From: Oleomonas cavernae
GTDB lineage: Bacteria; Pseudomonadota; Alphaproteobacteria; Zavarziniales; Zavarziniaceae
Direction: 5' to 3'
NCBI RefSeq assembly: GCF_003590945.1
Contig: NZ_QYUK01000011.1
Location: 3,070,909 to 3,134,908, forward strand
Length of the DNA: 64,000 nucleotides
The notes under the pieces are model-generated. The model was given only the letters and a program-made list of their open reading frames with translations. It searched no databases and was not told where the DNA came from. Numbering within the stretch: the stretch's first letter is position 1; every line of letters begins with the position of its first letter. Below, one piece after another: positions 1 through 15,051 of this stretch. Made by a program: the position numbers and the translations under genes.

Positions 1-1
1 C

Positions 2-804
2 GGCACGCTGCTGTCGATCGCGGCCGCAGCGATGGCGGAAGCGGGCGACGACCGGCTGGCCTCGGTCACGCTGTTCGCCGCCCAGACCGACTTCACCGAG
101 CCGGGCGAACTGCAGCTCTTCATCGACGACAGTCAGGTCGCCTACCTCGAAAGCGCGATGTGGGCGAATGGCACCCTCGAGGCGACACAGATGGCCGGCG
201 CCTTCCAGATGCTGCGCTCGAACGACCTGATCTGGTCCCGCGTGGTTCACGACTATCTGATGGGCGAGCGCACGCCGATGTCCGACCTCATGGCCTGGAA
301 TGCCGATGCGACGCGGCTGCCCTACCGGATGCAGTCCGACTATCTGCGCCAGCTCTTCCTGCACAACGACCTGGCCAGCGGCCGCTATCTGGTCGAGGGG
401 CAGCCGATCGCGATCCAGAACATCCGCGCGCCCATGTTCGCCGTGGGAACCGAGCGCGACCACGTGGCCCCCTGGCGCTCGGTCTACAAGCTCCATTACC
501 TGGCAGATACCGCGGTTACGTTCGTCCTCACCAGCGGCGGCCACAATGCCGGTATCGTCAGCGAACCCGGACACCCCACCGCCACTACAGGATGCTGGAA
601 AAGCTGGCCGACGACCTGTGCCACAGCCCGGACGAATGGGTCGCGGCCGCCCCCGTTCATCAGGGTTCCTGGTGGCCGGCCTGGGCAGCCTGGCTGGCGG
701 CGCGTTCGCCCGCCGCGCAGGTAGCCCCCCCGCCCATGGGCAACGCGGCCAAAGGCTGTCCGGTGCTGGCCGACGCCCCCGGCACCTATGTCCTGCAGCG
801 ATGA
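2..804 (+). pseudogene. phaC: Poly-beta-hydroxyalkanoate synthase (PhaC), C-terminal part, frameshifted
   Basis: This is the 3' part of a PHA synthase, which polymerises hydroxyacyl-CoA into storage granules; the 5' end with the nucleophilic cysteine lies outside the window. Visible family signatures are [14 protein letters not shown], the catalytic aspartate in [11 protein letters not shown] and the catalytic histidine in SGGHNAGI. The first frame runs from base 2 to about 575. The expected C-terminus ([11 protein letters not shown] to APGTYVLQR) continues in another frame to the stop at 802-804. One C added to the run at 574-577 restores a single frame, so the gene is either freshly broken or misread. 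Family assignment is firm; the broken state is uncertain. Confidence 0.9.
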
Positions 805-978: not shown

Positions 979-2901
979 TCAGTCGAGCAGTTCGCGCAGC
1001 CGTGCCGCCAGTTCCTTGGCGGTGTAGGGCTTCTTGAGCCAGCTGCCGGCTTCCGCCAGTTCCCGGCCCGCGACGCTGGGCTCGGCATAGCCCGAGGTGA
1101 ACAGGATCTTCACGTCCGGACGGATGATGCGGACCTCCCTGGCCAGTTCGTCGCCGGCCATGCCGCCGGGCATGACGATATCGGTGAACAGCAGGCGGAT
1201 TTCGGGGTGCGCCTCGATGGCGGCCAGCGCCTCCATCCCCGCGGCCGCCTCGATCACGTTGTAGCCCGCGTCCTTCAGCCGGGCGACCGCGACGCGGCGC
1301 ACCCGCGCGTCGTCCTCCACCACCAGGATGCATTCGTGGCCGCGCTGTATCCCGCCCGAACCCTGATGGCCCTGGCCGGACGCGGCCGCGTCTTCGGCAT
1401 CGGCGCCGGCCACCGGCAGGAACAGCCGCACGCTGGTACCCCGGCCGACCTCGCTGTAGATCTGGACATGGCCGCCGGATTGCTTGGCAAAGCCATAGAC
1501 CATGCTCAAGCCCAGGCCGGTCCCGGCGCCCACGGACTTAGTGGTGAAGAAGGGTTCGAAGGCCCGCTGCTTGACCTCGTCGGTCATGCCCGCACCGGTG
1601 TCGGTCACCGCGACCAGGACATAGGTGCCGGTGCGAACCTGGGGATACATCTGCGCGTAGTCGAGGTCGAGCCGGGCGCGCGAAATCTCCACCGTCAGCT
1701 TACCGCCGCGCGGCATGGCATCGCGGGCATTCAGGGCGAGATTGAGCAAGGCGTTCTGGAGCTGCGAGGCATCGACCAGGGCCTGGTTCGAGGCGCCGGT
1801 CACAATGGTGCGCAGTTCGATCGTCTCGCCCAGCGTCCGGCGCAGCAGGTCGGCGAAATTCGAGACGAGCTGGCCCACGTCGGCCAGCTTGGGATTCAGC
1901 GGCTGGCGCCGGCCGAAGGCCAGCAACTGGCCGGTCAGCTTGGCGCCGTCGTCGGCCGCATCCTGCGCCTCACGCAGCAGGACGAGCAGCTTCTCGTTGT
2001 CGAGACGCGCCTCGATCATCTCGAGATTGCCGCTGATGACGGTCAGCAGGTTGTTGAAATCATGGGCGATGCCGCCGGTGAGCTGGCCGACCGCCTCCAT
2101 CTTCTGGGCCTGGCGCAATTCCTCTTCCATGCGGTGGCGGCTGGTCAAGTCGCGGATGAAACCGGTGAAGATGCGCCGGCCGCCGCTGACCGCCTCGCCG
2201 ATCGCCAGTTCCATGGGAAAGTTTGTGCCGTCCTTGCGCAGGCCGGTGACGACCCGGCCATAGCCGATGATGCGCCGCTCCCCGGTTGTCAGATACCGCC
2301 CGATATAGCCGTCATGCGCCTCGCGATCGGGTGAGGGCATCAACATACGGACATTCTCGCCGCAGACCTCGTCCGCGCCGTAGCCGAACAACCGCTCGGC
2401 GGCGGAACTGAAGGAGGTGATGATGCCGGCATCGTCGATCACGACCATGGCCTCGGGCACCGTGTCGAGAATCGACACCAGATGGGCCTGACGCTCGGCG
2501 AGATCGGTCTGAGCGCCTTTCAGGTCGCTGATGTCGTTGTTGGTCTGCAGGACCGAGAGCCCCGTCTGGTCTCCGGTCGAAAGCGTGACCCAGCGGCTGG
2601 CGATCCAAAGCTGATGGCCGTCGCGGTGGCGGTGCACGAGCTCGCCTTCCCAGGCCCCGTACTGGCGCAGCCGCTGCTTGATCGCCTCCTGCGGCTCGGG
2701 GAAGATCGTGCCTAGCAGGTCGTGGACCTTGCGCCCCACCGCCTCGTCGCGGGTCCAGCCGTAGAGCTGCTCGCAACCGGCGGTCCAGCGGCTGATCACC
2801 CCACCATCGTCATGCACGATGATGTTGGTGCCATCGAGGACGCGAACGATTTCGTCGAGGCGGCTGTCGTCGGTGACCTGGAGCTCGATTGCATCAATCA
2901 A
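979..2901 (-). CDS. Hybrid sensor histidine kinase with FixL-type haem-PAS domain (hFixL-like)
   Basis: This 640-residue protein has an N-terminal PAS (about 15-130), a second PAS (about 138-255), HisKA with phosphoacceptor H280 in GGIAHDFNN, an HATPase domain with N-box NARD near 391 and GTGLGLS near 463, and a receiver domain with D574. The second PAS matches the oxygen-sensing FixL PAS: H196 in AHDGY and R216 in GYGRVV lie 20 residues apart, like haem ligand H200 and R220 of Bradyrhizobium FixL. It should be a soluble O2-regulated kinase, as no membrane segment is visible. It starts with TTG 22 bp after fixK and is probably co-transcribed with it. The receiver fusion matches the hybrid FixL described in some Rhizobium. 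Confidence 0.85.
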
Positions 2902-2923
2902 CTTGGACAGGCCTCGCTACGCG

Positions 2924-3679
2924 TCAGTGCGGCCACACCGCCTGCTGCGTATAGGTGTTGCTGGTCCAGCGGTTATCGTCCTCATCGCTCTCGCCCGCAA
3001 GCAGCGCAAGCATTTCCAGCTTGCGAATGGTGACGGCATGGCGGCCGCAGGGCGCGATGACGCCGCGGCTGGCGAGCTTGGTCATGGTGCGGGAGACCGT
3101 TTCGATGGTCAGGCCCAGGTAGTCGGCCATGTCGAGCCTGGTCATGGGAACGTCGATCACCGGGCTGCGCTGGTCGCCCGCCAGGCGGTTGGCGATGATC
3201 AGCAGGAAGCTGGCGACCCGCTCCTCCGCGCTCTTGCGGGCCAGCAGGACCATCTGGTCCTGGGCCGCCGCCATCTCGTCGCACAGCCGCGCGAAAAGCT
3301 GCGGGCGCAGTTCGGGCGACTTGTTGATTTCCTCCTGGAAGCGGTTGCGGCCGAAGCGGCGGAACCGGGTCGGGGTCACCGCCTCGGCGGTATAGAGGTA
3401 GCGGTCCCGCAGCGAGATGCCGACCAGGTCGCCCGGGTAGATGAAGCCGGTGATGACCCGGCGGCCGTCCGGCAGCAGCTTGTGGATGCGCAGGACGCCT
3501 TCGACGACGGCGAAGACATGGTCCGCGGCATCGCCTTCCCAGAAGATCGCGGCACCGGTCTCGATCCGTTCCACCGGCTGGTTGCTGAACAGCCCCTCGA
3601 GGCTCGCCGCTGCCGGCTGTTCGCCGGTGAAGGGCTTGGTGGCGGCGCGGGCCTGCGAGAGCGAGTTTTCGGCGTACAT
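2924..3679 (-). CDS. fixK: Crp/Fnr-family regulator, FixK type
   Basis: This is a 251-residue CRP/FNR regulator with a cyclic-nucleotide-like beta-roll at about 30-150 and a C-terminal helix-turn-helix (MADYLGLTIETVSR, about 190-210). The recognition helix has E-T-V-S-R, the residues that read TTGAT half sites in FNR and FixK. There is no N-terminal cysteine cluster, so it cannot carry the FNR iron-sulfur cluster and is better called FixK. It is likely controlled in amount by the neighbouring two-component system, because a K-box-like site lies 105 bp upstream. FNR/FixK-type boxes between 6.3 and 14.2 kb are its plausible targets. It shares an operon with the haem-PAS kinase. Confidence 0.85.
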   Translation of the reverse strand: MYAENSLSQARAATKPFTGEQPAAASLEGLFSNQPVERIETGAAIFWEGDAADHVFAVVEGVLRIHKLLPDGRRVITGFIYPGDLVGISLRDRYLYTAEAVTPTRFRRFGRNRFQEEINKSPELRPQLFARLCDEMAAAQDQMVLLARKSAEERVASFLLIIANRLAGDQRSPVIDVPMTRLDMADYLGLTIETVSRTMTKLASRGVIAPCGRHAVTIRKLEMLALLAGESDEDDNRWTSNTYTQQAVWPH

Positions 3680-3691
3680 GGGACTTCCCTG

Positions 3692-3721
3692 TGTCTGCGT
3701 CGGACTATGTCTGCGTCGGAC
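3692..3721. repeat. Two-copy 14-bp direct repeat in the fixK leader
   Basis: TGTCTGCGTCGGAC occurs at 3692-3705 and again at 3708-3721, a 16-bp period, between the K-box-like site and the fixK start codon. It would lie in the 5' untranslated region of the fixK mRNA. It may be a simple duplication or a binding site; nothing more can be said from sequence. Confidence 0.7.
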
Positions 3722-3784
3722 ATTGGGAGTTGAACCGGGCCGCGTGACGGCAGAACGATCTGCGTGTTACCGTCGGTGCAATTG

Positions 3785-3800
3785 TGTAACAGAGTGTAAC
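3785..3800 (-). promoter_or_regulatory. K-box-like site upstream of fixK (FxkR-type response regulator target)
   Basis: On the minus strand the sequence reads GTTACA-CTCT-GTTACA. I recall GTTACA-N4-GTTACA as the K-box bound by the OmpR-family regulator FxkR in the Rhizobium etli fixK promoter. The site is 105-121 bp upstream of the fixK start and also lies just ahead of the divergent regulator gene at 3839. The tandem 10-bp-spaced hexamers fit an OmpR-type dimer. Confidence 0.75.
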
Positions 3801-3838
3801 AGGGCCATCTTGACACCCCTTCTCGCCTGGGCCTGATC

Positions 3839-4570
3839 ATGCCCGACCCCGCCATCCGCACCGAGCACATCCTGGTCGTCGACGACGACCCGCGGATCCG
3901 ACAAATGCTCGTGCGCTACTTCGAAGACGAAGGCTACCGCGTCAGCACGGCGGCCGACGGCCATGAGATGCGCGCGTGCCTGCTGAAAGGTGCCGTCGAC
4001 ATCATCCTGCTGGACCTCGTCCTGCCCGGCGGCGACGACGGCCTGGGCCTGGCGCGTGAAATTCGGGCCCAATCGGACGTGCCGATCATCATGCTCACCG
4101 GGCGCGACGACGTCGTCGACCGGATCGTCGGCCTCGAGGTCGGGGCCGACGACTACATCGCCAAGCCCTTCCACCTGCGCGAAGTCCTGGCCCGGCTGCG
4201 GACCGTCCTGCGGCGGCGCACCGCGGCCGCTCCCGAGAGCAAGCGGGACAAGACCGAAGTCTTCCATTTCGACGGCTGGCGGCTCGATCTCGACCGGCGC
4301 CAGCTCGTGTCGGCCCAGGACCGGGAAATCACGCTCACCACGGGGGAGTTCGACATCCTGGTGGTGCTGGCGAGACACCCGGGGCGGGTATTCACCCGGG
4401 AAGCGCTGATGGATCTAACGCGCGGCCGGGCGCACGAAGCGTTCGACCGCACGATCGACGCGCAGATCGCACGATTGCGCAAGAAAATCGAAGCCGACCC
4501 CAAGAGCCCGGCCTTGATCAAGTCGGTCCGGGGTATCGGCTATGTCTTCACCGGCAAATCCATGGGTTGA
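3839..4570 (+). CDS. OmpR/PhoB-family response regulator (FxkR-like candidate)
   Basis: This 243-residue protein has a receiver domain (about 8-125) with the acidic pocket VVDDD, phosphoacceptor D59 in ILLDLVLPG and K in YIAKPF, followed by a winged-helix DNA-binding domain (about 140-237, ending RGIGYVFTG). It is divergent from the fixK-kinase operon, and the K-box-like tandem GTTACA site sits in the shared promoter. In R. etli the partner of hybrid FixL is the OmpR-family regulator FxkR, so context supports the same role: phosphorylated by the haem-PAS kinase and activating fixK. The response-regulator call is firm; the FxkR role is inferred from synteny and the operator. Confidence 0.85.
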   Translation: MPDPAIRTEHILVVDDDPRIRQMLVRYFEDEGYRVSTAADGHEMRACLLKGAVDIILLDLVLPGGDDGLGLAREIRAQSDVPIIMLTGRDDVVDRIVGLEVGADDYIAKPFHLREVLARLRTVLRRRTAAAPESKRDKTEVFHFDGWRLDLDRRQLVSAQDREITLTTGEFDILVVLARHPGRVFTREALMDLTRGRAHEAFDRTIDAQIARLRKKIEADPKSPALIKSVRGIGYVFTGKSMG

Positions 4571-5049
4571 GGCGCCAAACTGCCGGGGATGAAGGCATGG
4601 GGCTCCAATACCATGGGCAGTCCGTCGTCCGGGTGCTCGCTTTCGTACAGGTCCAGATGCCGGCTCAAGGCGGCCTGCCCGAAGGTCTGGATGCGCAGGC
4701 CATCAAAGGCACCGGCTTTGGCCACCGCCCGCAGATATTGCACCATCTCGCCGGCGAGGCCGGCCTCGTCGCCGACGCTCATCACGGCAAAGAACCAGAC
4801 ATCAAGCATGCGGCCGCGGCGGGGATGCATCGTGGCGGAGCCGATACACAACCCGTGGATATAGCCCCTGGCATTCGTCGCGACATGAATTTGATCGTGC
4901 TCGCCCTGCTGCCCTTCGCGCTCGAGCACAGCCCGGCAGAACGACCGCCATTGCTCGAGCGAAAGCGCGCCCGCGAACAGCCTGGCGACGCAATAGGCGG
5001 GATCGACTTGCTCGGCGGTCAGCGGACCGACCTGGTAGGTGTAGGGCAT
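4540..5049 (-). CDS. Conserved hypothetical protein, possibly GNAT-like fold
   Basis: This 169-residue soluble protein has no signal peptide or membrane segment. The arrangement of short strands (IHGLCIGSATMHPRRGRMLDVWFFAV) followed by helix and strand resembles an acetyltransferase core, but no clear acetyl-CoA motif is seen, so I do not assign a function. It lies 18 bp downstream of the carbamate kinase gene on the same strand and probably belongs to that anaerobox-driven unit. Its 3' end overlaps the convergent response-regulator gene by 31 bp. Confidence 0.65.
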   Translation of the reverse strand: MPYTYQVGPLTAEQVDPAYCVARLFAGALSLEQWRSFCRAVLEREGQQGEHDQIHVATNARGYIHGLCIGSATMHPRRGRMLDVWFFAVMSVGDEAGLAGEMVQYLRAVAKAGAFDGLRIQTFGQAALSRHLDLYESEHPDDGLPMVLEPHAFIPGSLAPQPMDLPVKT

Positions 5050-5067: not shown

Positions 5068-6054
5068 TCATTTTAGGGGTGCCCACATGGCGCCACCATG
5101 ATCTGGCTCAAGCCGGCCCGGGATCGGCGTCACCAAGGCATCATTTTCGCTGCCGGCAATCCACGTACCCTGTTCGCCGCAGGCAATCGCCAGGGCATCC
5201 TCGAGCCGGCCGATGGCGGCGCTGCGGCCGGTTTCCGCCGCAAAGGCGGCGGCGGCGGCGATCTTCAGCCCCATGGAGCCTTCGGGGAAAGCCCCGGCCG
5301 CGAGGGTCGAGGGGTTCGCCCGCCTGATCGGCCGTGCGGCCGGCGTGCCGAAATCCTGGAAGACCGCCTCGACATCGGTCAGCAGCAGCAGCAGGTCGGC
5401 ATCCAATTGCCGGGCCAGCAGGGCGCTGGCGTGATCCTTGTCGATCACCGCCTCGACGCCGCAAAGACTGCCGCCCAGTTGCTCGGCCACCGGGATGCCG
5501 CCCCCGCCGGTGCAGATGACGACGACATCGAATTTGACCAGCAAGGCGATGACCTGCGCCTCCATGATGGCGATCGGCCTGGGCGACGGCACGACGCGCC
5601 GCCAGGCCTTGCCGTCGGGGGCGACGTGCCAGCCCCGTTCCCGGGCCAGCCGGTGCGCCGTCGCCTCGTCATAGACCGGCCCGATGGGCTTGGTCGGGCG
5701 GGCGAAGGCCGGGTCGTCGGTCGCGACCTTCACCTGGGTCAGGAGCGTGGCGACAAGCCTGGTCCGCAGCAGCGCGCTCAACTCCTGCTCGATCAGGTAG
5801 CCGATCATGCCCTCGCTTTCGGCCCCCAGCACGTCGAGCGGATAGGCGCCGTCCGCCGGCCCGGCCGCTGCCTGCAAGGCCAGCAGGCCGACCTGCGGAC
5901 CGTTGCCGTGGGTGATGATCAGCGAGTGGCCGGCCTCGACCAGTTGCGCCAGGGCCGCGGCAGCGCGCCGGATACTGGCGCGCTGGTTCTGCGCCGTCAG
6001 CGGCTCGCCCCGCCGCAGGAGGGCATTGCCGCCGAGTGCCGCCACGATCCGCAT
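5068..6054 (-). CDS. arcC: Carbamate kinase
   Basis: This 328-residue enzyme of the amino-acid kinase family interconverts carbamoyl phosphate plus ADP and carbamate plus ATP. Signatures include the N-terminal phosphate loop ALGGNALL, THGNGPQVGLL, CTGGGGIPV near 190 and the C-terminal GSMGLKIAAAAAF. It normally finishes the arginine deiminase route and yields ATP without respiration, but no arcA or arcB is in this window. One base separates it from the upstream small membrane-protein gene, and an FNR/FixK-type box precedes the pair, so it is probably induced at low oxygen. Confidence 0.9.
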   Translation of the reverse strand: MRIVAALGGNALLRRGEPLTAQNQRASIRRAAAALAQLVEAGHSLIITHGNGPQVGLLALQAAAGPADGAYPLDVLGAESEGMIGYLIEQELSALLRTRLVATLLTQVKVATDDPAFARPTKPIGPVYDEATAHRLARERGWHVAPDGKAWRRVVPSPRPIAIMEAQVIALLVKFDVVVICTGGGGIPVAEQLGGSLCGVEAVIDKDHASALLARQLDADLLLLLTDVEAVFQDFGTPAARPIRRANPSTLAAGAFPEGSMGLKIAAAAAFAAETGRSAAIGRLEDALAIACGEQGTWIAGSENDALVTPIPGRLEPDHGGAMWAPLK

Positions 6055-6055
6055 C

Positions 6056-6307
6056 TCAGCCCCCTATCGTGGCGACGAGAATGGCCTTGATCGTATGCAT
6101 GCGGTTCTCGGCCTGATCGAAGACGATCGATGCCGCCGGCACGCCGCGCGCGCTTTCCCGGCCGAAGAATTTCGGCATGGTGCCGTTGCCCGCCGCGACG
6201 TGCGGGATCTCGGCTGCGAGCAGCGGCCAGTTCAGGAGGGCGACCAGGACCGGGACCACCACCGCGATGTTGATCAGGGTCGCGGCGCGGAAATCCGTGG
6301 TCGCCAT
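6056..6307 (-). CDS. Small membrane protein upstream of carbamate kinase
   Basis: This predicts 83 residues starting MATTDF. I chose this ATG over an upstream one because AAGGAGAC (6312-6319) sits at ideal spacing. A hydrophobic stretch at about residues 12-32 (INIAVVVPVLVALLNWPLL) suggests one membrane span or an uncleaved signal; the rest is short and soluble. It is nearly fused to arcC (1 bp gap) and is first in the unit after the anaerobox at 6373-6386. Function unknown. Confidence 0.6.
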   Translation of the reverse strand: MATTDFRAATLINIAVVVPVLVALLNWPLLAAEIPHVAAGNGTMPKFFGRESARGVPAASIVFDQAENRMHTIKAILVATIGG

Positions 6308-11333: not shown

Positions 11334-11347
11334 TTGATGCAGATCAT
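11334..11347 (-). promoter_or_regulatory. FNR/FixK-type box, one mismatch, upstream of the exporter operon
   Basis: TTGAT-GCAG-ATCAT differs from TTGAT-N4-ATCAA in the last base. It lies 87 bp upstream of the HlyD-like start; at -41.5 it predicts a start near 11299. It is weaker than the other three boxes, so support is moderate. Confidence 0.5.
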
Positions 11348-11386: not shown

Positions 11387-12460
11387 CTAGGCGGACTCAA
11401 GCGCCGCCGCAGGCGCCCGGCCAGCCACCGGTTCGGCGAAGTCGAGGACCATGCGGCCCTCGATCGCCCCTGCCTTGAGCCTGGCGAAGATGGCGTTGAT
11501 GTCCTCGAGCGGTGCCTTGTGGATCTCGGCCCGCACCTTGCCGTCGGCCACGAAGGCGATGGCCTCGTCCAGGTCGCGGCGGGTGCCGACGATCGAGCCG
11601 CGCACGGTAATGCGCTTCAGCACTACCTCGAAGATCGGGGTCGGGAAATCGCCCGGCGGCAGGCCCACCAGGCTGACCGTGCCCTTGCGCCGGACAAGCT
11701 TCAGCGCCTGGGCGAAGGCCGGCGGCGAAACCGCCGTCACCAGCACGCCCTGGGCACCGCCGCCCGTCGCGGCCAGGACCTCGGCCACGGCCTCGGGCGA
11801 ACGGGCATCGATGGCGATATCGGCGCCGGCCGCCCGCGCCAGGGCCAGTTTCTCGGGCGCGATGTCGAGGGCCGCGACATGCAGCCCCATCGCCTTGGCA
11901 TACTGAATGGCAATGTGGCCCAGGCCGCCGACGCCCGAAATGGCCACCCATTCGCCGGGACGCGCCTCGGTCTCCTTCAAGCCTTTGTAGGTGGTGACGC
12001 CGGCGCACAGGATCGGCGCGATCTGGGCAAAGTCGATGCCGGCGGGCAGGCGGGCAGCGAAGGCGGCCGAGGCGATGACATATTCGGCAAAGCCGCCGTT
12101 GCAGCTATAGCCGGTGTTGTGCTGATGCTCGCACAGCGTCTCCCAGCCGGTTTCGCAGTATTCGCAAGCCAGGCAAGCGTCGTGCAACCAGGCCACGCCC
12201 ACCGCATCGCCCAGCTTCAGCCCGGTCACATCGGGCCCCAGCGCCGCGACGATGCCCGCGACCTCGTGGCCGGGAATGAAGGGCGGGGTGGGTTTCACCG
12301 GCCAGTCGCCCTCGGCGGCATGCAGGTCGGTATGACAGACGCCGCAGGCCATCACCTTGACCAGCACTTCGCCGGGGCCTGGCACCGGGATCGGCACCTG
12401 CTCGATCACCAGGGGCTTGCCCAGGGCCGTCACCACCGCGGCCCGCATCGTTTTCGCCAT
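11387..12460 (-). CDS. Zinc-dependent alcohol dehydrogenase (AdhP-like)
   Basis: This medium-chain dehydrogenase of about 357 residues oxidises or reduces alcohols and aldehydes with NAD(H). It has the catalytic zinc signature ACGVCHTDLHAAEGDWP with GHEVAGIV, the structural-zinc cysteines in CLACEYCETGWETLC and the Rossmann motif GVGGLGHIA. I start it at ATG 12460 because GAGGAG lies just upstream; an earlier frame start lacks a ribosome site. An FNR/FixK-type box sits 57 bp ahead, so it is likely a low-oxygen fermentative dehydrogenase. Confidence 0.9.
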   Translation of the reverse strand: MAKTMRAAVVTALGKPLVIEQVPIPVPGPGEVLVKVMACGVCHTDLHAAEGDWPVKPTPPFIPGHEVAGIVAALGPDVTGLKLGDAVGVAWLHDACLACEYCETGWETLCEHQHNTGYSCNGGFAEYVIASAAFAARLPAGIDFAQIAPILCAGVTTYKGLKETEARPGEWVAISGVGGLGHIAIQYAKAMGLHVAALDIAPEKLALARAAGADIAIDARSPEAVAEVLAATGGGAQGVLVTAVSPPAFAQALKLVRRKGTVSLVGLPPGDFPTPIFEVVLKRITVRGSIVGTRRDLDEAIAFVADGKVRAEIHKAPLEDINAIFARLKAGAIEGRMVLDFAEPVAGRAPAAALESA

Positions 12461-14148: not shown

Positions 14149-14217
14149 CACGCCGCCGCACCAGCCGGGCATTGTTGAGTCAATGAATCCTAGACGAGCG
14201 CTGCCAGGGTGAACGCG

Positions 14218-15051
14218 ATGGCTTACAAGACGCTGATGGTACACGTGGATGAAGGCCCTGACGCGGCCGCCCGTGTCGAATTCGCCTGCACGCTTGCCGA
14301 TCGCTTCGACGCCGCCCTGATCGGCGTGGCCGCCTGCCCGATGAAAATGCCGCTGACCGATCCCTATACCACGGGCGGCATGGTCATCGATTTCCTGCAG
14401 CAGGAGCATGACCGAGCCGAGGCCTGCATCAAGCAGGCCGAGGAGATCTTCAACACCGCGGCCGCCGCGCACAAATGCCGGACCGAATGGCGCAGCGCCC
14501 TCCGCCTCCCCACCCCCGTGCTCGCCCACGAGAGCCGCGCCGCCGACCTGATCATCGTCGGCCGCGACCGCCCGCAGGACGGGCACCGCCAGGCCCTGGA
14601 GCCGGGCGATCTGATCATGAATGCCGGCCGGCCGGTTCTCGTCGTGCCGCCGGCGGCAGCGCCCGACACGGCCCCCTCGGGGGTGCTGATCGCCTGGAAG
14701 GAAAGCCGGGAGGCGCGCCGGGCCGTCGTCGATGCCCTGCCGCTATTGCAGATCGCCGCGAAAGTCACCGTGGCGGAGATCTGCGAAGACGACGAGATCG
14801 AGCAGTCCCAGCGCCGGCTGGGCGATGTGGCGGCGTTCCTTGGTCGTCACGGCGTCAATGCCGACCCCGTGGTCCTGCCGGCGCAGGCCGGGTCCGTGGC
14901 CGATCGCCTGATCGCCTTTGCCGGGCGGGAGCGCGCCGGCCTGGTCGTCATGGGCGGCTATGGCCACGCCCGCATGCGCGAATGGGTCTTCGGCGGGGCG
15001 ACGCGCGAGATGCTGGGCCACAGCCCGGTCTGCTGCCTGTTCAGCCACTGA
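14218..15051 (+). CDS. Universal stress protein, tandem UspA domains
   Basis: This protein of about 277 residues has two Usp domains (about 1-145 and 150-277). The second carries the ATP-binding pattern G-x2-G-x9-G in GGYGHARMREWVFGGAT; the first is more degenerate. I prefer ATG 14218 (MAYKTLMVHVD) to GTG 14209 because the fold starts there and AGGGTG precedes it. A strong anaerobox lies upstream. Usp genes are common members of FNR/FixK regulons, so it fits a low-oxygen survival role; the exact ligand is unknown. Confidence 0.85.
   Translation: MAYKTLMVHVDEGPDAAARVEFACTLADRFDAALIGVAACPMKMPLTDPYTTGGMVIDFLQQEHDRAEACIKQAEEIFNTAAAAHKCRTEWRSALRLPTPVLAHESRAADLIIVGRDRPQDGHRQALEPGDLIMNAGRPVLVVPPAAAPDTAPSGVLIAWKESREARRAVVDALPLLQIAAKVTVAEICEDDEIEQSQRRLGDVAAFLGRHGVNADPVVLPAQAGSVADRLIAFAGRERAGLVVMGGYGHARMREWVFGGATREMLGHSPVCCLFSH

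Follow-up and report, generated by a model that had tools for sequence, protein, structure and literature searches.

The locus and its layout

A stretch of 64,000 nucleotides from the genome of Oleomonas cavernae (hereafter the window; positions 3070909-3134908 of the 4.37-Mb contig NZ_QYUK01000011.1, within a 5.64-Mb draft genome) carries hfixL, fixK and fxkR, the genes of a low-oxygen signalling circuit that encode a hybrid haem-sensing kinase, a CRP/FNR regulator and an OmpR-type response regulator (Table 1). All three genes are intact between window positions 979 and 4570, where an earlier interpretation made from the letters alone (the sequence-only reading) had placed them. That reading put fixK and the kinase gene in one operon, which agrees with the gap of 22 bp between them, and fxkR is read away from both across a divergent intergenic region of 160 bp. 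It also called the locus chromosomal-looking; rpoB lies on the same 4.37-Mb contig, and the locus is therefore chromosomal. By its genes and operator it belongs to the known hFixL-FxkR-FixK circuit, and it very probably represents a complete chromosomal low-oxygen circuit outside the Hyphomicrobiales, including the mechanism and the acquisition proposed below. The circuit itself is known; what is new is the host, an apparent sensor swap within its genus, the regulon cluster and a longer operator.

The compact arrangement, with fxkR divergent beside fixK-hfixL, is the commonest layout among the loci found (60 of 82). It occurs in Rhizobium, Neorhizobium, Sinorhizobium, Bosea, Kaistia, Ancylobacter, Methylovirgula and Acidisoma, as well as on the S. 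meliloti plasmid pSmeSM11a. Hence, the earlier description of the locus as a minimal version of a plasmid circuit does not hold, and the split arrangement of the R. etli type is the exception among fixK-hfixL loci. Nor are the rhizobial hFixL and FxkR genes generally plasmid-located, as had been assumed, since the fxkRc / fixKc-hfixLc cluster of R. leguminosarum 3841 is chromosomal (PMC7888657).

Table 1. Features of the hFixL-FxkR-FixK locus and its surroundings (window coordinates; residue numbers for protein domains).
Feature	Position	Strand	Description
phaC-like polyhydroxyalkanoate (PHA) synthase, 3' part	1..724	+	start and anaerobox (contig position 3069862) precede the window; putative FixK target
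hfixL	979..2901	-	640 amino acids (aa), TTG start; soluble hybrid haem-PAS kinase
hFixL domains	residues ~38-107; 140-251; 272-333; 377-498; 525-635		PAS1; haem PAS (H196/R216); HisKA (H280); HATPase_c; receiver (D574)
fixK	2924..3679	-	251 aa, CRP/FNR regulator; upstream of hfixL in the same operon
Probable -10 of fixK (TTCAACT)	3728..3734	-	TNNANT at +67 in 54/82 loci
GTNAC element (GTCACG)	3743..3748	-	+52 of fixK promoter; 68/82 loci, <=1/82 at control offsets
K-box extension	3765..3778	-	phased half-sites, AC at +23 (CACC, 3775-3778) and +33 (GTAACA, 3765-3770)
K-box GTTACACTCTGTTACA	3785..3800	-	exact FxkR operator motif, upstream of fixK and pointing at it
fxkR	3839..4570	+	243 aa, OmpR-type response regulator, phospho-acceptor D59; divergent from fixK
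arcC carbamate kinase	5068..6054	-	putative FixK target
Anaerobox TTGACCCGGATCAA	6373..6386	+	upstream of arcC stretch
Anaerobox TTGATGCAGATCAT	11334..11347	+	one mismatch; upstream of HlyD/ABC-exporter genes
Zinc alcohol dehydrogenase	11387..12460	-	putative FixK target
Anaerobox TTGACCGAGATCAA	12517..12530	+	upstream of alcohol dehydrogenase
Anaerobox TTGACCTGCATCAA	14135..14148	+	upstream of universal stress protein gene (14209-15051 +)

The hybrid kinase, its regulator and FixK

Two PAS domains, HisKA, HATPase_c and a receiver are recognized in the kinase by Pfam. The second PAS domain matches the solved FixL haem domains of B. japonicum and S. meliloti with an E-value of ~1e-45, the next family being DosP at 4e-13, and its H196 and R216 fall on H200 and R220 of BjFixL in an ungapped alignment. 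Both results are in line with the earlier proposal of a haem-PAS, with these residues spaced as in FixL, on a hybrid kinase with a receiver, and by sequence the domain is of the haem-FixL type, against the alternative of a non-haem PAS. H196, H280 and D574 are invariant in 90/90 hFixL homologues and R216 is kept in 89/90. Over its full length the kinase shares 65-74% identity with rhizobial hFixL and 74% with that of Bosea, and in the NCBIfam search its kinase-receiver half is similar to the CckA type. The genome encodes a second FixL-like sensor (L188:8714-10678; G000:C11, about 1994713-1996677), a soluble hybrid kinase with no adjoining FixJ and with two tandem haem-type PAS domains, each of which has an H...R motif (HDGYLHNYRTSGVRKIIGIGR, HDAYLDNYHNTGQRKIIGIGR).

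The regulator consists of a receiver and Trans_reg_C according to Pfam. It shares 71% identity with the FxkR of R. etli p42f and as much as 79% with the Bosea copies. A tree that adds 29 OmpR-type regulators of the class places the FxkR sequences, including the window copy, in one clade with a support of 100/98, to which a more distant FxkR-like group is sister. The divergent gene had been read as FxkR-like with an unrelated OmpR group as the alternative; by identity and tree position it is a true FxkR, grouping with the R. etli protein apart from the 29 comparison sequences, a set in which neither PetR nor CtrA appears by name.

The kinase scores 286 of the 850 bits at the NCBIfam FixL equivalog cut-off, i.e. 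well below it; this cut-off is for classical FixL, and such a score is expected of the hybrid type. The best NCBIfam match of the regulator is OmpR, likewise below cut-off. Both scores would also suit a PAS kinase of hybrid type and an OmpR regulator with no more than a resemblance to hFixL and FxkR and with another signal or target. However, the NCBIfam matches included no hFixL or FxkR model, and the full-length identity, the tree, the K-box and the gene layout all fit hFixL-FxkR, which leaves this explanation largely refuted and highly improbable.

FixK comprises a cNMP-binding domain and a Crp helix-turn-helix (Pfam), and its recognition helix is of the FNR type, with E193, S196 and R197 kept. 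It was at first taken to be cysteine-less, which is not accurate: C133 (cysteine in 69/86 homologues) and C211 are present, and what the protein lacks are the N-terminal cysteines that hold the Fe-S cluster in proteins of the FNR/FnrN type.

The K-box and an extended operator

The decisive evidence for the circuit is the K-box at 3785-3800, which the sequence-only reading did not mention. It reads GTTACA-CTCT-GTTACA and agrees exactly with the FxkR K-box as published, GTTACA-N4-GTTACA (PMC4999443, PMC7888657), and all 16 bases are identical to the site of S. meliloti pSmeSM11a. Among the 60 compact divergent loci an exact K-box is found in 19 and one with <=1 mismatch in 55, against expectations of 0 and 0.06 from shuffled regions. 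A chance occurrence is rejected on account of this conservation.

The 5.64-Mb genome contains just one further exact match. This second K-box-like site, GTTACAAATCGTTACA (G000:C11:3385807-3385822; L048:7808), lies upstream of an unrelated pair of OmpR/EnvZ-like genes, and the orthologous pair of congeners (L033, L041) also has a copy nearby, exact or with one mismatch. It was rejected as a further FxkR target, as a different regulator pair adjoins it and it is conserved in the genus; it is probably the own site of the OmpR/EnvZ-like regulator.

Alignment of 82 fixK promoters anchored on the K-box points to an operator longer than the 16-bp motif. The dinucleotide AC stands at +3/+13/+23/+33 in 100/99/94/84% of the 82 loci, with a median of 2.4% for other offsets, and is followed by the GTNAC and -10-like elements of Table 1, the latter roughly where the spacing between K-box and start site in R. 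leguminosarum predicts (PMC7888657). The AC/GTNAC pattern is also kept at fixK promoters whose fxkR sits elsewhere, and the extended operator therefore belongs to fixK. The simplest reading of half-sites phased by 10 bp may be two FxkR dimers binding in tandem in helical phase. The motif has been given as 16- or 17-bp in the two papers compared (PMC4999443, PMC7888657), with the original FxkR paper standing outside this comparison. Autoregulation of FixK through an anaerobox in the fxkR-fixK gap was considered and rejected, as none occurs there at <=1 mismatch in any of the 60 compact loci.

Predicted course of signalling

From homology and cis-site evidence we infer the following course. Oxygen bound to the haem of the second PAS domain would keep the hFixL kinase off; at low oxygen it would leave the haem, and hFixL would autophosphorylate at H280. 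The kinase would then drive the phosphorylation of FxkR at D59, either directly or via its own receiver at D574. Phosphorylated FxkR is predicted to bind the K-box together with the conserved downstream half-sites and to switch on the fixK-hfixL operon, which would raise both FixK and the kinase itself in a positive feedback. Such a loop, with the kinase downstream of its own target, had been proposed before the K-box was noticed, and is the natural reading of an exact K-box upstream of fixK-hfixL. FixK in turn would activate the nearby anaerobox genes, i.e. fixNOP-GHIS, phaC, arcC, alcohol dehydrogenase, universal stress protein and ABC-exporter genes, as well as the distant hemN and fnrN.

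The same circuit might instead pass the phosphate from kinase to FxkR through a separate histidine phosphotransfer (Hpt) protein in a four-step phosphorelay. The receiver aspartate kept in all hFixL homologues and the CckA-like kinase-receiver half would suit such a relay; no Hpt gene was noted in the cluster, though a genome-wide Hpt search was not made. The relay is considered a tentative possibility.

Host, sister species and acquisition

The RpoB protein of the host, compared with records of the plasmid collection, is 75.5% identical to that of Methylobacterium and 74.5% to that of Sinorhizobium, against 80.3% between the latter two. The lower identities place the host outside the Methylobacterium-Sinorhizobium clade, and by RpoB it is outside the Hyphomicrobiales. 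Outside the host's own family, the genome search turned up no relatives of the same order. Within the genus, an FxkR orthologue is absent from 5/5 congeners examined, and a FixJ orthologue (72-100% identity) is present in four of these five (G001, G002, G004, G005). In the congener whose locus was read (G001), FixJ stands beside a membrane-bound FixL and FixK. There is thus an apparent swap from FixL-FixJ-FixK to hFixL-FxkR-FixK within one genus.

In a concatenated tree the locus falls among the non-Rhizobiaceae copies (Bosea/Kaistia/Methylovirgula/Acidisoma), near Kaistia and Bosea, with modest support. Most probably, the cassette reached the host by horizontal transfer from a hyphomicrobial lineage resembling Bosea and has taken the place of the FixL-FixJ-FixK of the sister species; we infer both the direction and the replacement. 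Several observations weigh against this interpretation. The K-box motif is not specific to FxkR, given its second copy at an unrelated regulator pair, and the donor placement has values of 85-92 in the Shimodaira-Hasegawa-like approximate likelihood ratio test (SH-aLRT) around the position of the window. FixJ was not found in the own genome, a 96%-complete draft in 29 contigs (best match 39%), and there is no FixJ match either in a sister-genus genome of the same family (G006), which has fixK/fxkR, a K-box with one mismatch and, downstream, the same neighbouring gene, and is not firmly grouped with the window in the trees.

The possession of fixK/fxkR by G006 with no FixJ match makes ancestral presence followed by loss in the sisters the main rival, in which the circuit would be ancestral to the family (or to the Alphaproteobacteria), vertically inherited and lost in most sister species with no recent transfer. 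FxkR-like and hFixL-like outgroups at 52-58% in other families also speak for it. However, FxkR is missing from every congener examined, and the loose grouping with G006 does not favour vertical descent. Moreover, the identities to Bosea of FxkR (79%) and hFixL (74%) are as high as the cross-order identity of RpoB (75%), though signalling proteins diverge faster within the Rhizobiaceae, and the nesting of an Acidisoma locus inside Bosea (see below) indicates that the locus is mobile. Ancestry with loss is therefore regarded as unlikely, and acquisition from a Bosea-like lineage is retained as the better account.

The evidence leans slightly towards a wider proposal, in which hFixL-FxkR-FixK would be a mobile low-oxygen cassette rather than a rhizobial invention. 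Such a cassette would cross alphaproteobacterial orders and could replace FixL-FixJ-FixK in one genus with the downstream anaerobox genes staying, and its operator would have four half-sites phased by 10 bp (two FxkR dimers), followed by GTNAC and the -10, rather than one 16-bp K-box alone. The circuit was known from nodule bacteria and has been traced back to the ancestor of the Rhizobiaceae (PMC4999443); its intact presence in another order and in Bosea, Kaistia, Methylovirgula, Ancylobacter and Acidisoma takes it beyond the frame of symbiosis. If one sensor-regulator pair drives the fixNOQP genes in some sister species and an unrelated pair drives the same genes in another, the genus would provide a natural experiment on the swapping of signalling modules, and the conserved extension of the operator offers a concrete model of FxkR binding.

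A survey of the class, in which the three best candidates per genome were scored, found hFixL in at least 5 of 385 genomes. Acidisoma sp. L85 of the Acetobacteraceae (L107) has an hFixL-FxkR-FixK locus nested within the Bosea copies, which by this nested position is an independent transfer between orders. Three loci of the Rhizobium leguminosarum group (L140, L147, L150) have the divergent cluster with an FxkR of 56-59% identity and a one-mismatch K-box, GTTACGGATTGTTACA; their FxkR resembles the chromosomal copy of strain 3841, which was reported without a K-box (PMC7888657). Distant hFixL/FxkR/FixK-like clusters (52-58%) with hfixL convergent to fxkR occur in other families (L165, L166, L168), where no K-box was found at <=1 mismatch, and it is possible that they are an older form of the circuit. 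L167 is similar to them and has no fixK match within reach.

Relation to known systems

The closest precedent is the hFixL-FxkR-FixKf circuit of R. etli CFN42 (Zamorano-Sanchez 2012, as cited in PMC4999443 and PMC7769827), which has orthologous proteins (FxkR as above), the same K-box and the same inferred order of action. It differs in that fxkR lies apart from fixK/hfixL on p42f, near denitrification genes, whereas here the three genes share one chromosomal locus. Likewise, the hFixL-FxkR system of S. meliloti SM11 (Reyes-Gonzalez 2016, as cited in PMC7769827) shares the divergent fxkR / fixK-hfixL layout and the identical 16-base K-box on pSmeSM11a, but is plasmid-borne, has other neighbours and has an annotated kinase of 528 aa without the first PAS domain.

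R. leguminosarum 3841 carries fixK9a-hfixL9 on pRL9 in addition to its chromosomal cluster (PMC7888657). It resembles the window in the fixK-hfixL operon, the adjoining fixNOQP, FnrN as a second sensor and the three genes standing together in the chromosomal cluster, and the anaerobox/FnrN architecture of the window parallels its dual-sensor network (PMC7888657). In contrast, its paralogues are spread across replicons, and its chromosomal cluster is reported to make a minor contribution (PMC7888657), whereas the window has a single chromosomal cluster with an exact K-box. The FixL-FixJ-FixK cascade of B. japonicum, S. meliloti and Caulobacter, found also in G001, has in common a haem-PAS kinase, a response regulator, FixK and the logic of anaerobox and fixNOQP; its FixL, however, is a membrane-bound classical kinase without a receiver and its FixJ is LuxR-type, a combination not found at the present locus.

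Anaerobox cluster and neighbouring genes

The genome has 21 anaerobox sites (TTGAYNNNNRTCAA), of which 7 lie within 30 kb around the locus (P ~3e-9 after correction). FixK-type anaeroboxes are thus present upstream of putative targets that include the fixNOQP genes, and the one at fixNOQP (ccoN) is conserved in this genome and the four relatives checked. The 30-kb cluster contains ccoN, ccoO, ccoP, ccoG, ccoH, ccoI and ccoS (fixNOP-GHIS), together with genes for an OmpW-like protein, a P-type ATPase, PHA synthase, carbamate kinase, two alcohol dehydrogenases, an ABC exporter and a universal stress protein; ccoH, ccoS, OmpW and the P-type ATPase were named by eye or by homology to relatives, and fixQ was not called by the simple gene finder. 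Homologues of the alcohol dehydrogenase occur near hFixL in 10 other loci, with identities up to 83%. Elsewhere in the genome, hemN and a cysteine-bearing FnrN carry anaeroboxes, both genes being named by eye. A recent island of foreign base composition was rejected, as the G+C content is flat (~0.64-0.72) and the surroundings of the island yielded no tRNA.

The same contig also carries a nifHDKEN cluster accompanied by fixABCX-like genes (G000:C11:372000-389600; L208), of which only nifH was tested against a family model. It makes the host a putative diazotroph, and no anaerobox was found in this 19.5-kb nifHDKEN stretch. Beside fxkR, a 169-aa protein without a Pfam match is encoded at 4540-5049 and has a 154-aa homologue in the sister-genus locus (L049). 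Just upstream of arcC, an 83-aa open reading frame (6056-6307) matches at its C-terminus the end of ornithine carbamoyltransferase (PF00185, below cut-off) and looks like a remnant of arcB.

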